Source: Alphaproteobacteria bacterium (GTDB lineage Bacteria; Pseudomonadota; Alphaproteobacteria; UBA9219; RGZA01). From it: 33,953 bases of DNA. Below, in pieces: positions 14,097 through 33,953 of the stretch; within the stretch, counting starts at the first letter, position 1, and each line of letters opens with the position of its first letter. Location of the stretch: contig JANQEX010000109.1 in the NCBI GenBank assembly GCA_028278105.1, forward strand, positions 1-33,953, written 5' to 3'. Under the pieces are notes generated by a model that searched no databases, had not been told where the DNA came from, and saw only the letters and a list, made by a program, of their open reading frames with translations. Both the position numbers and the translations under genes were made by a program.

Positions 14097-14130
14097 GTCT
14101 GCCCCTGTCAAAATAATGGGTTTTAAATTC

Positions 14131-14234
14131 GGTAGTGGGTCCGTTTGCCCCCTCGACAATCATGCCCGCCCCCGCCTTCGCGGGGGTAAACTCCAGCGGG
14201 GGCGGGGGTGATTTTCTCAAACTGACCCACTACC
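14131..14234. mobile_element. MITE-like element, 104 bp, with 8-bp TSD TTAAATTC
   Basis: TIRs GGTAGTGGGTCCGTTTG / CAAACTGACCCACTACC; flanked by TTAAATTC at 14123-14130 and 14235-14242. Confidence 0.85.
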
Positions 14235-17723: not shown

Positions 17724-19058
17724 CTTTTATCCCTCTTCCTCCTTCTCGTTCTCGCGGCATCCCCCCTTCAGGCCGCCGAAAAGCCGCCGGGGCTGATCGA
17801 CCGGCTGCTGGACGCGCTGGGGCGCGAAAAAATGCCGCGCCTCGTCGTTCAGGAAAAACCGCCCGCCGAAGGACCCGCGCCGGCGGCGCCACCGGCTGCA
17901 ACGGCTCCCACGGCGCCGCGGGCGTCCTCCGGGCCGCCGCGCCCGGCCGGACCGGAGTTGGCGCGCAATTTCCTGCCCGTTTACGATCTTGACCGCGGCG
18001 GTCCGGCGGCGGAGGAAACGGGCAAGTCCCCGCCCCTTCTGCCCTTCTTCGCGCCCGCGTCCATCGAGGCGGCGCATCGCGGCGTCTACGCGCTGGTGGT
18101 GATGATTCCCGACAGCGCGCGGGATGCCGCGCGCGCCTATGCCCTCGCGCGGGCGGCGCAGGACGCCGCCTCGGCGCAAAAGCCCGAATGGTACGCCGCC
18201 AACGCCTTCGTCTTCGTGCCACAATTCCTGGCGCCCGAAGACATCGCCGCGAGAGCCGCCGCCTGGCCCGACAAGGGGGCCGCCCTGCTGCGCTGGGCGG
18301 GCGGGGGATGGATTTACGGAGCCGGCAGTTCGGTCAGCCCTGCTGCCGCGGCTTTTCCCGCGCCACGCGGCGTGAGTTCCTTTGCCGCGCTGGATTTCGC
18401 CCTTCTGGCGCTGGCCCGCAAATCCATCTTTCCCGATCTTGAGCGCGTGGTGGTGGCGGGCGCGGGCGCGGGCGGCGATTTCGTGCAGCGCTACGCGGCT
18501 CTTGGCATCGCGCCCGACATTCTGGCTTCGGACGGCCTGCGCGTCCGTTTCGTCGTGGCCAATGCCTGGTCGTACCTTTATCTCGACAAAACGCGCGCCG
18601 CGCCGCTTGAGGCGGGCGCGTTCACCGGCGCGCGGGAACCCGTCTTCGCCGAGCCGGAAGCGGATGCCTGCCCGCAGGCGCAGCTTTATCCCTATGGGCT
18701 GGAGGCCTTGCCGCCCTATGGCCGCAAGCAGGGCAAACACGCCATCCGCCTGCGCTACGACTCGCGCGCCGTCATCTATCTGGCGGGGAGCGAGGCCAAC
18801 CGGCCCCTGGCGGATTCCGCGCCGGGCGCCTGCGCCCGGCTTTTGCAGGGCCGCGCGCTCGCCGGACGCGCGCGACTCTATTTCGCCCATCTGCGGCGTC
18901 TGTATGGCGCGGACGCGATGTCCCGCGCGCAAAGACTTTACATGATACCGGGAGCCGGCGCCGCCGCCGCCGCGCAAATCTGGCAAAGCCCCTGCGGGCT
19001 GTCGGCGCTGTTCGGGGATGGAAGCTGCAACCAGAAGTCAGAGATCAGAGGTCAGTAA
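17655..19058 (+). CDS. Exported protein, possible alpha/beta-hydrolase (DUF3530-like)
   Basis: TTG start; signal peptide FLLTLLTLLTLPTPLPLLSLFLLLVLAASPLQA; SASFAALDFALLAL/GAGAGGDFVQRYA hydrolase-like segment. Family assignment tentative. Confidence 0.65.
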   Translation: MDRFEKKFLLTLLTLLTLPTPLPLLSLFLLLVLAASPLQAAEKPPGLIDRLLDALGREKMPRLVVQEKPPAEGPAPAAPPAATAPTAPRASSGPPRPAGPELARNFLPVYDLDRGGPAAEETGKSPPLLPFFAPASIEAAHRGVYALVVMIPDSARDAARAYALARAAQDAASAQKPEWYAANAFVFVPQFLAPEDIAARAAAWPDKGAALLRWAGGGWIYGAGSSVSPAAAAFPAPRGVSSFAALDFALLALARKSIFPDLERVVVAGAGAGGDFVQRYAALGIAPDILASDGLRVRFVVANAWSYLYLDKTRAAPLEAGAFTGAREPVFAEPEADACPQAQLYPYGLEALPPYGRKQGKHAIRLRYDSRAVIYLAGSEANRPLADSAPGACARLLQGRALAGRARLYFAHLRRLYGADAMSRAQRLYMIPGAGAAAAAQIWQSPCGLSALFGDGSCNQKSEIRGQ

Positions 19059-19065
19059 TCAGACA
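19032..19065. repeat. Heptad arm CAGAAGT-CAGAGAT-CAGAGGT-CAGTAAT-CAGACA
   Basis: In-register; encodes the last residues and TAA of the preceding CDS. Confidence 0.9.
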
Positions 19066-19251: not shown

Positions 19252-19282
19252 TATCAGAAATACAATGGCCAACCCCCAATTT

Positions 19283-19352
19283 CTGACCTCTGATTTCTGA
19301 CTTCTGATATCTGACCTCTGATCTCTGACCTCTGAATACTGACTTCTGATAA
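19283..19352. repeat. Heptad array (CTGAYNT)x10
   Basis: CTGACCT-CTGATTT-CTGACTT-CTGATAT-CTGACCT-CTGATCT-CTGACCT-CTGAATA-CTGACTT-CTGATAA, zero indels. Confidence 0.95.
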
Positions 19353-19379
19353 AAAAACCCCCCGCCTCGCGGCGGGGGG
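19350..19379 (-). terminator. Rho-independent terminator downstream of sciP-like gene
   Basis: Minus strand CCCCCCGCCGCGAGGCGGGGGGTTTTTTT. Confidence 0.85.
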
Positions 19380-25469: not shown

Positions 25470-25520
25470 AGGCGGGCAAAACATGTCACAGTCATCGGGG
25501 CGTGGAAAGCGGAAAAAATG

Positions 25521-25935
25521 GCGTCATCCTGGAAAACGCGCGCCGCGCGTTTATCCAGGACCTCTTCCCCATAGATGGCGCGGGATTCCGGATAAGGGCC
25601 CGCCTCCGCTCGCCCTTTTAGGAATGACGGCTTTGGGAAAGTGAGAAGTGAAGAGTGAAGGGTGAAAAAAAACGGCGTCATCCTGGAAAACGCGCGCGGC
25701 GCGTTTATCCAGGACATCTTCCCCATAGATGGCGCGGGATTCCGGATAAGGGCTCGCCTCCGCTCGCCCTTTCCGGAATGACGGCTTTGGGAAAGTGAGA
25801 AGTGAAGAGTGAAAAGTTAAAGAAACGGCGTCATCCCGGAAACCGCCACAGGCGGTTATCCGGGATCTCTGTAGTCGGAGAGAGATCCTGAATAAAGCTC
25901 GCTCCGCTCGCTTTTTCAGGATGACGTCTTGGGGA
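25521..25935 (+). repeat. ~154-bp structured repeat in tandem (2 near-identical copies plus a diverged third)
   Basis: GCGTCATCC[T/C]GGAAA at 25521, 25675 and 25828; units 1-2 each carry a GTGARRA heptad array. Confidence 0.9.
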
Positions 25936-29945: not shown

Positions 29946-32507
29946 ATGTCCCTTTATCTTGGCATCGACCTTGGCACTTCCAACAGCGTGATCGCGGGGT
30001 TGACGGACGGCAGGATGCGCGTCTTCCGCCCGGCCGACGGCGGCGAGACCCTGCCCTCGATCATCTATTTCGACAAGCGCGGGCACAGGCTGTTCGGCCG
30101 CCGCGCGCATGACCAGGCCTTCGTCAATCCCGAAAACGTGGTGGCGGGCTTCAAGCGGCTGATGGGCACCAAAACGCCGCTGACGGCGCCGGAGGCCGGC
30201 ATCTCGCTCGCGCCGGAGGAATGTTCGGCCGCCATCATCGGCCAGCTTCTGGGCCAGATGGAAAACGACATCGGCAAGCACGAGATGACGGGCGCGGTCG
30301 TCACCATTCCCGCCGCCTTCAACCAGATGCAAAGCGAGGCCACGCTGCGCGCCGCCCGCATGGCGGGGCTGGAGCGCGTGGCCCTTTTGCAGGAGCCGGT
30401 GGCAGCCGCCATGGCGGCCATGGCCGGAAGCCCGCGCGACGGCTATTTCCTGATCTACGACCTGGGCGGCGGCACGTTCGACCTGGCCCTGGCCCATTGC
30501 AAGGGAGGCGACGTCCGCGTCGTCACCCATCAGGGCATCAACATGCTGGGCGGACGCGATTTCGACCGCATGATCGTGAACGAGGTGGTGCGGCCCTGGC
30601 TGGCCGCGACCTTCGACCTGCCCGAAAACTTCGGCCGCGATCCCGACTGGCGGCGGCTGATGCGCATTGCCGCCCTGGCCGCCGAGCGCGCCAAGATCGA
30701 CCTCTCCCTGGTGGAAGAAACGCAGGTCTTCGCCTCGGAGGACGAAGTCCGCATGGAAGACCGGGCCGGGCGCGACATGTTCATCGACGCCACGCTGACC
30801 CGCGGCAATTTCGAGGCGCTGATCCGCGAGCCGGTGGCCAACACCGTCGCGCTCATCCATTCCGTCCTGAAAGACGCCGAGCTGCACGCCGGGCAGCTGG
30901 AAAGCATTGTCTTCGTGGGCGGGCCCTCGCGCATCCCCCTCATCCGCGAAATGGTGAGCGCGGCGCTGAAGGTTCCGGTGGACCTGAAGCTTGATCCCAT
31001 GACCGCCGTCGCCATGGGCGCGGCCTGGCACGCCGAAGGCCTGACTTTCGATGAAAAGCCGGGCGCGGCCCCGCACGCCAGGCGCAAGCCCGTGGAAGCC
31101 CATGCCGAAGTCGACAGGAAGCAGACCGGACTCGACCTGTCCTTCGATTATCCCGCCCGCACCGCCTCCGATCACGCCAGCTTGAAGGTGGTCTTGAAAA
31201 ACAGGCCGGGCCGCGCCCGCTGGCTGCGCGCCCTGCGCCCCGCCGATCACTGGCAATCGCCGCTTTACAAGCTGGAGGACGGGGTGACGCTGCCCCTGCC
31301 CCTGCCCCAGGTGGGCCTTAACGAATACACCGTCGCCGTCTATGACGAGCAGCGCGACCCGCTGCCGCATGGCGAGCGGCCGATCGCCATCACCCGCACC
31401 GCCGTCCGGGCCGCCTCGATCCCCGCCGCGCAAAGCATCGCCGTCAAGGTGCTGGACCGCCGGGCGGGCGGCAACGCGCTGGACGTCATCATCGAAAAGG
31501 GCACGCCGCTGCCCGCCGAGGGCAAGGCGGTGTTCCAGGCCGCGCGTGACCTGGCGGCGGGCGATCCGCACTCGCTGTCGCTGGAGCTGTTCCAGCTTGA
31601 ATATCCCGAACGGGTTGAGTTGAACCTTTGCGTGGGCGTCTTCTACATCGGCGGCAACGACCTCCCCGAAGACTACGTGCTGCGCAAGGGCGAGCCGGTG
31701 ACCTTCAACTGGGCGATGGATGAAAGCGGCATCCTCGGCGCCACCGTCCTTATCCCCTCGCATGAGGAGGAGCCGGAGCATATCGAGCTGGCCACGCCGC
31801 GCTTCTATTCGCCGCAGGCGGCGGCGCTGGCCTACGACATCGCGCACGGCCTGCCCTTCACCCATGCCATGCTGGCGCAGGCCGAAAACGACTGGGGCGA
31901 CCTGGTGGCCGCCATCGGCCCCGGCGCGGGCGCCGACGTGCAGCTTCTGAAAGACCGGCTGGACGACCAGACCGACATCCTGCGCGACAACCCCGAGGAC
32001 AGCGAGATCATCCGCCAGGTTTCGGAGGAAGCCCGTTTCCTGCGCCAGGACATCGCCCGCGCCGGACGGCGCTATCTGGGGCCCTTGCTGGAGCGGCGGC
32101 TGGGCCGGCTTTCGGCCATTTTCAACCGCGTGGCGCGCAATTTCGCCAGCGCCGAGGAAATGGAAAGGTTCGAACAGGGACTGCGCCAGGTGCGCGAGAT
32201 TCTCGACCGCGACGACGCGCAGGAACTGCCCCAGGCCGACCCGCTGCTGGAAGACCTGACCGGCGACTTCTTCGACATCGCCTGGCGCGACCGCGGCTTC
32301 GTGCGCATGTGGTTCAACCGCCTGAAGGACGAGTCCCACCTCTTCCCGGACCAGGACGAGTTCGCCTCCATGGTCGCCGCCGGCGCGGCCCATGACCGCG
32401 ACCGCGACGACGAGGCGCTGCGCCTGCTGGTCAAGCGCATGTTCGACGCGCGCGTGCGCCTCTCGGCCTCCGACGCCGTGGCCGACCCCGCCACGCTGAT
32501 GCGCTAG
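29946..32507 (+). CDS. Large divergent Hsp70-family (DnaK-like) protein
   Basis: YLGIDLGTSNSVIAGL, LIYDLGGGTFDLALAH, VFVGGPSRIPLIREM; 853 aa with expanded C-terminal half. Confidence 0.93.
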   Translation: MSLYLGIDLGTSNSVIAGLTDGRMRVFRPADGGETLPSIIYFDKRGHRLFGRRAHDQAFVNPENVVAGFKRLMGTKTPLTAPEAGISLAPEECSAAIIGQLLGQMENDIGKHEMTGAVVTIPAAFNQMQSEATLRAARMAGLERVALLQEPVAAAMAAMAGSPRDGYFLIYDLGGGTFDLALAHCKGGDVRVVTHQGINMLGGRDFDRMIVNEVVRPWLAATFDLPENFGRDPDWRRLMRIAALAAERAKIDLSLVEETQVFASEDEVRMEDRAGRDMFIDATLTRGNFEALIREPVANTVALIHSVLKDAELHAGQLESIVFVGGPSRIPLIREMVSAALKVPVDLKLDPMTAVAMGAAWHAEGLTFDEKPGAAPHARRKPVEAHAEVDRKQTGLDLSFDYPARTASDHASLKVVLKNRPGRARWLRALRPADHWQSPLYKLEDGVTLPLPLPQVGLNEYTVAVYDEQRDPLPHGERPIAITRTAVRAASIPAAQSIAVKVLDRRAGGNALDVIIEKGTPLPAEGKAVFQAARDLAAGDPHSLSLELFQLEYPERVELNLCVGVFYIGGNDLPEDYVLRKGEPVTFNWAMDESGILGATVLIPSHEEEPEHIELATPRFYSPQAAALAYDIAHGLPFTHAMLAQAENDWGDLVAAIGPGAGADVQLLKDRLDDQTDILRDNPEDSEIIRQVSEEARFLRQDIARAGRRYLGPLLERRLGRLSAIFNRVARNFASAEEMERFEQGLRQVREILDRDDAQELPQADPLLEDLTGDFFDIAWRDRGFVRMWFNRLKDESHLFPDQDEFASMVAAGAAHDRDRDDEALRLLVKRMFDARVRLSASDAVADPATLMR

Positions 32508-32601
32508 GTTCAATGGGCAATTAAACTCAAGTCATTGAGAAGATTAAATGAACATTCCGGGCAAGGCTGCGAAGCAGCCGCGACCCGGAATCCCGTTTGT
32601 T
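32504..32601 (+). repeat. 98-bp dispersed repeat, copy 1
   Basis: CTAGGTTCAATGGGCAATTAAACTCAAGTCATTGAGAAG...GTTTGTT; ungapped match to 33856-33953. Confidence 0.93.
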
Positions 32602-32679
32602 CCTGAAAATAAATGGAATTCCCGCCCCCGCCTGTCCGCCTCCGCAGGCTCCAGCGGGCATTCACGCTTGAAATCCAAA

Positions 32680-32996
32680 TAATACCAACGATCTTATAAA
32701 CTGATCCATCCCACAGGGAGAGTGGTCATGCCCGCCCCCGCCTTCGCGGGGGCAGGCTCCGGCGGGGACCCAGTTTAATATTGTAAGCGTGAACTCCCGC
32801 CGGACGGTGCTTATACCAACGAATTTATGAACTGATCCATCCCCCAAGGAGAGTTGTCATGCCCGCGCAGGCGGGCATCCACGCTAAAAAACCATCAAAA
32901 CAAAAGTTTTAAAGCGTGGACCCCCGCCTGCGTGGGGAGGCGGGGGTGACGGTCCGTGCTTTTGGGATGAGTCATTTCATAAGACTGTTGGTATTA
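32680..32996. mobile_element. Nested/compound MITE-like element, TIR TAATACCAAC
   Basis: Left TIR TAATACCAACGATCTTATAAACTGATCCATCCCA (32680), second left TIR ATACCAACGAATTTATGAACTGATCCATCCC (32813), right [37 protein letters not shown] (ends 32996). Confidence 0.8.
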
Positions 32997-33162: not shown

Positions 33163-33681
33163 ATGGCAAAGCACAGACCCTCCCGCCTCGCATCCAGACT
33201 TGGCATCAAGCAAAGCGCAGACGCTTACAGCGGGATTCTCAAGGCCTACCGCGAGGTTCCCGGTCCCGGCAATGCCGATCCGATCTCCCGCGTCAAAATG
33301 CTGACGGGCCGTCTGGCAACCCTGAGTGAAAACAACACGTTCCGGGTCGTGCAATCGGCTGGCAACGGCAAGAATTGGAAACCCGCCTCCCTGGGAAAAC
33401 AGGTGGGGGTTGCGGCAAGCATTCTCCAAACGCTTGATCAAACATGCATGGCCACAACAAGGCGCGGACTAACCACGGAACACATTGCCGCAGCCATGGC
33501 GCATCTGACCGCGCCGTCCGGTAACCACGCATCCCCTTCTTCCGCGCCGCGGCAGACCGTCGCGCCACAAGGCCTCAAACTGGATTCCGCCCTGGCCCAT
33601 GCCCATGCCGGGTTCGACCCTTGGGACAGGTTGAATATGCGAGATTTCAACCGGATTCGTTCCTTCAATCCCAGCGCTTGA
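33163..33681 (+). CDS. Hypothetical protein
   Basis: MAKHRPSRLASRLGIKQSADAYSGIL...; start could also be 33136. Confidence 0.55.
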   Translation: MAKHRPSRLASRLGIKQSADAYSGILKAYREVPGPGNADPISRVKMLTGRLATLSENNTFRVVQSAGNGKNWKPASLGKQVGVAASILQTLDQTCMATTRRGLTTEHIAAAMAHLTAPSGNHASPSSAPRQTVAPQGLKLDSALAHAHAGFDPWDRLNMRDFNRIRSFNPSA

Positions 33682-33719: not shown

Positions 33720-33816
33720 GGTAGTGTCTCAGTTTAAAAAACATCATGCCCGTCCCCGCCGGAGTTTACCCCCGCGAAAGCGGGGACGGGGGTGATTGTC
33801 AAAGTGAGACACCACC
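33720..33816. mobile_element. MITE-like element, 97 bp, with 8-bp TSD CCTTTTCC
   Basis: TIRs GGTAGTGTCTCAGTTT / CAAAGTGAGACACCACC; CCTTTTCC at 33712-33719 and 33817-33824. Confidence 0.88.
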
Positions 33817-33855: not shown

Positions 33856-33953
33856 CTAGGTTCAATGGACAATTAAACTCAAGTCATTGAAAAGACGAGA
33901 TGAACATTCCGGGCAAGGTTGCGCAGCAACCGCGACCCGGAATCCAGTTTGTT
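33856..33953 (+). repeat. 98-bp dispersed repeat, copy 2 (may continue past window)
   Basis: Ungapped alignment to 32504-32601. Confidence 0.93.

Follow-up and report, generated by a model that had tools for sequence, protein, structure and literature searches.

A MITE family with a captured head-to-head REP hairpin dimer probably accounts for a dispersed repeat beside an Hsp70-like gene

RESULTS

Two copies of a dispersed repeat at the end of the contig

The window, that is, the whole stretch of DNA analysed here, comprises all 33,953 bp of contig C1 in the draft genome of its host (G000; 119 contigs). A sequence-only reading had placed a 98-bp dispersed repeat near its right end, with a hairpin in which a C:G pair of copy 1 is replaced by T:A in copy 2. 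The two copies (32504-32601 and 33856-33953) were confirmed to align without gaps at 91% identity, and the description of the hairpin arms and of the C:G/T:A pair was correct. The Hsp70-like ORF ends at 32507 with TAG at 32505-32507, and copy 1 does overlap this stop codon; the copies also bracket the hypothetical ORF at 33163-33681. The unit had to be revised: the 98 bp are the left part of a MITE family, designated MITE 1, whose complete copies range from a basal length of 163 bp to 255 bp, and copy 2 stops with the contig at 33953. The following features were annotated:

29946-32507, + strand: Hsp70-like protein (PF00012), 853 aa, stop codon read from the MITE 1 end
32505-32523, + strand: left terminal inverted repeat of MITE copy 1, TAGGTTCAATGGGCAATTA, with the target TA included; it supplies the TAG that terminates the Hsp70-like ORF
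32505-32625, + strand: MITE copy 1, the part collinear with complete copies of 163-255 bp
32554-32591, + strand: hairpin 1 of copy 1, a REP-like unit, ATTCCGGG-CAA-GGCTGC-GAA-GCAGCC-GCGA-CCCGGAAT
32592-32625, + strand: tail, spacer that separates the two REP units, and 5′ arm of hairpin 3 (GGAATTCCCGC)
32626-32682, + strand: tip of hairpin 3 and junction into the interior/end of a second MITE family (CATTCACGCTTGAAATCC..ATACCAAC)
32812-32996, + strand: complete copy of the second TA-type MITE family (TATACCAAC...GTTGGTATTA)
33163-33681, + strand: ORF between the copies, 172 aa, without a Pfam match, outside the element
33724-33812, no strand assigned: inverted-repeat element, GTGTCTCA...TGAGACAC, whose hairpin core is GC-rich
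33857-33953, + strand: MITE copy 2, left 97 bp only, an ordinary left end truncated by the contig end
33906-33943, + strand: hairpin 1 of copy 2, with the tip GGTTGC-GCA-GCAACC, the common MITE 1 allele

Copy 1 leaves MITE 1 after GCGGG inside hairpin 3 and continues as the second MITE family, without the right terminal repeat of MITE 1. Copy 2 ends at 33953 because the contig ends there; many other MITE 1 copies are likewise interrupted at contig ends, 95-100 bp in from a MITE end, which a fork of the assembly graph at that point would produce. In three genomes of the same family, the Hsp70 homologues have the C-terminus ..EPATLMRGE*, and the ORF of the window ends in ..DPATLMR*; therefore, its last two residues were lost at the MITE junction. 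The closest Hsp70 homologues were 71-73% identical, and no close strain showed an orthologous site with these flanks and without the insertion.

Several other repeats were observed in the window. An inverted copy related to the GTGTCTCA..TGAGACAC element lies at 14130-14215, and arrays of a 14-bp unit (CTGATTTCTGACCT type) occupy 2908-2990 and 19262-19358, with an inverted stretch at 19032-19063. A 154-bp tandem duplication, 94% identical, lies at 25513-25820, with a diverged inverted copy at 462-594.

Ends, length, and copy number of MITE 1

Read into their flanks, the genomic copies continue past the 98 bp and close with the reverse complement of their own start. The 98-bp repeat was scored in 40 copies across the genome, and in the stretches around genomic copies MITE 1 was complete in 39 cases, left-only in 21, and right-only in 20. 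The single-ended copies were mostly truncations at contig ends, nested insertions, and chimeras. The complete copies span 163-255 bp, one more at 339 bp holding a nested insert. Overall, the family comprises roughly 75 or more copies in a genome of 2 Mb (2.05 Mb), and these occur in both orientations. The dispersal described in the earlier reading is thus real, but the dispersed repeat is to be read as a MITE.

The elements are bounded by TAGGTTCAATGG ends, and the terminal repeats are 19 bp long (TAGGTTCAATGGACAATTA) and conserved, with 9 of 1064 cells changed. The end TAATTGTCCATTGAACCTA had 148 matches with up to 2 mismatches in the genome, compared with 0 for the reversed control, so that the repetition is far in excess of chance. 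All 39 complete copies are short and carry terminal inverted repeats at both ends and no ORF, as do MITEs of the IS630/Tc1-mariner type. By a rough count, in which some of the ORFs may not be real, 12 of 22 MITE 1 sites lay inside long ORFs. In 384 other genomes of the class, the MITE 1 ends gave only scattered 2-mismatch matches at the same level as the control, and they had no match among named GTDB contigs. An autonomous copy between distant ends was considered and rejected: the left-only copies with long flanks were chimeric or nested, and no complete longer element was found.

Target site and transposition

TA was present at both ends in 36 of the 39 complete copies. When the flanks were rejoined (n = 37), the targets read CTAG in 19 cases, TTAG in 8, CTAA in 7, and others in 3. 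Since about half of the rejoined targets (18/37) differ from CTAG while TA holds, the duplication is TA, and a 4-bp CTAG duplication was ruled out. CTAG makes up 2.2% of the TA contexts in the window, and the preference for CTAG was highly significant against this background (p = 3e-22). On contig C3, a copy sits in a tandem array of the 7-bp unit CTAGCTC, and its flanks, when rejoined across a single TA, reconstitute that array. TA duplication is characteristic of IS630/Tc1-mariner elements (PMC2170065), and IS630 itself prefers TA within CTAG, according to the title of Tenzen and Ohtsubo (1991) as cited in PMC2170065. The TA duplication of MITE 1 together with its CTAG preference is the signature of the IS630/Tc1-mariner type.

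Other TA-type MITEs were nested at TA inside MITE 1 copies, among them a relative of the second family (TATACCAAC..GTTGGTATTA) on contig C31 (L102). A third family, TAGGGTCTGAACTCAATTA..TAATTGAGTCCAGACCCTA, was nested in MITE 1 at GAC-TA-AATG (L079, L087, L107) and also occurred in right-end copies (L038, L050, L071, L078); ends similar to it were seen beside REP dimers in G030 (L159, L169).

The IS630-type DDE_3 domain (PF13358) was not found in G000, G001-G004, G010, or G030, and Y1_Tnp (PF01797) was not found in G000, G001, G030, or the two-contig genome G010; within the order, each domain does occur in 8 of 33 genomes. The MITE 1 ends were matched to no autonomous element or transposase of the same lineage. 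Therefore, the spreading enzyme would have been lost, be missing from the draft, or belong to another family; an autonomous copy could be absent from the 119-contig assembly. MITE 1 behaves like an IS630/Tc1-mariner-type MITE for which no parent element with PF13358 was found in the genomes searched.

The hairpin is half of a REP dimer that also exists outside the MITE

The 38-nt hairpin of the earlier reading is a single unit of a REP dimer in inverted arrangement. Each REP-like unit has a conserved foot stem (ATTCCGG..CCGGAAT), an internal loop (CAA..GCGA) that is kept in three genomes, and a rapidly evolving tip, which is self-complementary in nearly every case. In G030 and G010 the inverted pair is laid out as CGTCATTCC..GGAATCCCGTTTG - spacer - CAAACGGGATTCC..GGAATGACG, with GTCATCCC.. 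in G001. In the host genome, about 18 of 92 units are stand-alone REPs that lack both MITE 1 ends, and the dimer was also present without MITE 1 ends in G030 and G010 (same order) and in G001 (same genus). A covariance model of the unit, which is short and was partly built from the same sequences, gave at least 111 matches in G000, at least 50 in G030, and at least 30 in G001, compared with 0-5 in each of the other 30 genomes, all among the matches scored.

The tag of the units was GAAC in 88 of 92 cases in G000, CGTC in G030 and G010, and TGTC or GTC in G001. As in CGTC-type REPs, head-to-head dimers and a short CC(A) tail were found, and no associated transposase. In REP dimers of G010 and G030 (L062, L128, L157), the two units bear different long tips of up to 57 nt, which are nearly always self-complementary.

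The C:G/T:A pair and conservation of the stem

At the pair on which the earlier reading rested its argument, the units of G000 were T:A in about 72 cases, C:G in 5, G:A in 4, and C:A in 2. That reading would have been contradicted by unpaired substitutions as frequent as paired ones, and at this pair the unpaired states (6 units) were about as common as the alternative paired state C:G (5 units). A copy as divergent as copy 1 would carry a compensated pair by chance with p of about 0.02, and for the MITE 1 family as a whole the expectation is 0.30 such pairs. All but one of the five C:G units are stand-alone REPs that lie outside MITE 1, and three of these four share the GAA loop of copy 1; therefore, copy 1 more likely keeps or re-acquired an older tip than made a new change. 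A fresh compensatory change in copy 1, the original proposal, is weakened by these stand-alone REPs with the same tip. The C:A units belong to MITEs whose tips are otherwise of the common kind. The most economical path would run from C:G (old REP) via C:A to T:A (amplified MITE).

The claim of selection on structure fared differently in its two parts: the cited pair alone is weak evidence, and the comparison across genomes indicates that the hairpin is kept as a structure. Among 32 distinct 38-mers from three genomes, the covariation score was 0.284, compared with 0.093 for shuffled sequences and at most 0.076 for slid partners; 96.7% of cells paired, and both-sided changes occurred at 5 pairs. 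These covariation figures may be inflated by the relatedness of the sequences, while the changes span genomes and also occur within G030, where the paired variants CCCGC/GCGGG, CTCGC/GCGAG, TCCGC/GCGGA, and TTCGC/GCGAA were found. The exceptions were several G001 tips and two G030 tips, GCGAGC..GCGAGC, with the middle unpaired. Within MITE 1, changed cells numbered 4 of 1736 in stems and 27 of 682 in loops (p = 9e-12), and variable sites 2 of 28 in stems and 26 of 40 elsewhere (p = 1e-6); the outer stem of the hairpin was unchanged in all 1008 cells.

The pairing may be kept by selection, acting on a cruciform or an RNA hairpin, or by template-switch repair between the arms. In the latter case mutation alone would suffice: template switching would copy one arm to the other, and whole self-complementary tips would arise in single events. 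We give this reading somewhat less than even odds. Replication template switching between hairpin arms is a documented source of compensatory changes by mutation alone (PMC8794818), and whole tips have been replaced in G000 (GGTTGC..GCAACC, GCGCCC..GGGCGC, and GCGAGC..GCTCGC) and many times in G030 and G010. The chimeric and cassette-bearing tips described below also mark hairpin tips as points of rearrangement. However, the C:A and G:A mismatches that persist in six units fit ordinary stepwise substitution, and an outer stem with 0 of 1008 cells changed is not predicted by mutation alone.

A dispersed structured small RNA or cis-acting RNA, in which selection on an RNA stem causes the compensatory change, is improbable in our view. 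Covarying stems were indeed found, together with the invariant outer stem and the internal loop CAA..GCGA conserved in three genomes, yet covarying stems are equally expected of a DNA hairpin. A single strand of MITE 1 folds as a multi-branched hairpin closed by the terminal inverted repeats, very stably both as RNA (z = -8.9) and as DNA (z = -8.7); such folding is expected of any such inverted repeat. The element as a whole is a nearly perfect inverted repeat, so that both strands fold, and the TA duplications and the copies in both orientations likewise speak against an RNA gene. An Rfam search of the window matched two tRNAs and nothing else, leaving a stable small RNA unsupported. For the matched base change, a MITE that carries an older and more widely shared palindrome pair is a better explanation than a new small RNA would be.

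Mosaic tips and a 71-bp cassette

The oddest part of the repeat is its hypervariable, mostly self-complementary tips, together with a 71-bp cassette confined to hairpin tips. The second hairpin of MITE 1 has at least 7 alternative tips, either short or cassettes that give elements of 185, 208, 230-233, and 252-255 bp. The left haplotype was not associated with tail (p = 0.85), spacer (p = 0.69), or cassette (p = 0.68); only the cassette and the adjacent right end were associated (p = 0.004). Pairwise r2 was about 0 beyond neighbouring sites, sites 40 and 42 keeping 0.63. The markers are thus in linkage equilibrium along the element, to which recurrent single-site mutation could contribute.

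That repeat handling in the draft made the mosaic or chimeric copies is very unlikely. The genome is in 119 contigs, and many copies stop at contig ends that share 95-100 bp; therefore, the graph word length is probably near that value. The markers are mostly less than 80 bp apart, which makes misassembly an unlikely cause of the mosaic, and unlinked markers less than 50 bp apart lie within one graph word. The ends, TA duplications, and hairpins were also observed in dozens of copies with unique flanks.

The 71-bp GC-rich cassette was found in at least 43 places in G000 (e.g. L184, 1501-1571, and L187). Its flanks were self-complementary over at least 5 bp in 28 of 30 places examined, and its boundaries were nearly always GC[cassette]nAAGC. 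It occupies hairpin tips in at least 4 repeat contexts, one of which is MITE 1, where it lies in either orientation, and a related sequence was present in a hairpin tip of G001. On contig C27 at about 50978 (L059, near 1501-1760), the cassette of a MITE copy runs directly into a tRNA-like sequence (GGGTAGCTCAGTCGGTAGAGC..). Carriage of the cassette between hairpins by shared-stem recombination is a more ordinary reading than self-movement. A bolder proposal, which we consider rather unlikely, is that hairpin tips are a target of sequence exchange: the 71-bp and other cassettes would swap tip loops in at least 4 families, with near-fixed boundaries and in both orientations, and MITE 1 would be freely reshuffled. 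If true, this would mean a dedicated or strongly favoured mechanism of hairpin-tip insertion or exchange.

DISCUSSION

The best explanation of the repeat, to which we assign a probability of roughly 0.87, is a non-autonomous IS630/Tc1-mariner-type MITE with a captured head-to-head dimer of REP hairpins. The class of the element is ordinary, and its cargo is unusual. The REP dimer, which stands alone in G000 and in its relatives, would be older than the MITE and independent of it. The composite would have been spread to its roughly 75 or more sites by a transposase that recognized the 19-bp ends in trans. The pair change between the two copies would then contrast an older stand-alone tip, GGCTGC/GCAGCC, with the tip of the amplified MITE, GGTTGC/GCAACC; intermediate tips, GGCTGC/GCAACC, are still present.

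CGTC-type REPs are common in alphaproteobacteria, and a REP dimer in a TA-type MITE would offer a concrete route by which orphan REPs are spread by unrelated transposases. Taken alone, covarying pairs in a dispersed palindrome are no evidence for an RNA gene. Furthermore, the cassette-bearing tips form a natural series for studies of hairpin-tip rearrangement.

Correia elements and RUP are examples of IS630/Tc1-mariner-type MITEs, likened to MITE 1 here by description and not by sequence, and ISY100 and IS630 have enzymes of this type. Like MITE 1, such MITEs are short and without an ORF, have terminal inverted repeats, duplicate TA, and prefer TA in CTAG (PMC2170065). In contrast to them, MITE 1 has a REP dimer with exchangeable tips as its core, and no matching transposase was found.

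REPINs, too, are doublets of inverted REPs, which form a single hairpin and spread together (Bertels and Rainey 2011, PMC3116915). This defining layout is the basis for viewing the repeat as a REPIN-type element that a RAYT (Y1 transposase) mobilizes in single-stranded form, with the outer terminal repeats as merely part of the REPIN hairpin, but REPINs are tied to RAYTs, no Y1 transposase was found in G000, G001, G010, or G030, the GTAG tag is absent, and the TA duplication and CTAG preference are IS630-like, which makes this reading highly improbable.

CGTC-tagged REPs are typical of alphaproteobacteria, form head-to-head dimers, and have been reported without a dedicated transposase (Di Nocera et al. 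2013, PMC3733652). The units described here resemble them in the 8-bp AT-initiated stem, the CC tail, the inverted dimers, and the complementary spacer ends (PMC3733652). The units of G000 differ in their GAAC tag and in loops of 22 nt with an inner stem, compared with 4-5 nt, and most REP copies of G000 lie inside a MITE. REP dimers within outer inverted repeats are known from A. variabilis (GTAG-15 in TATAGGA...TCCTATA) and H. neapolitanus (CGTC-1) (PMC3733652). As in MITE 1, these dimers are regularly enclosed, and the outer repeat of A. variabilis starts with TATAGG. These outer palindromes are not described as TA-duplicating MITEs, and a target palindrome without a REP was not found there. 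Unlike in those genomes, stand-alone REPs coexist with the composite in G000.
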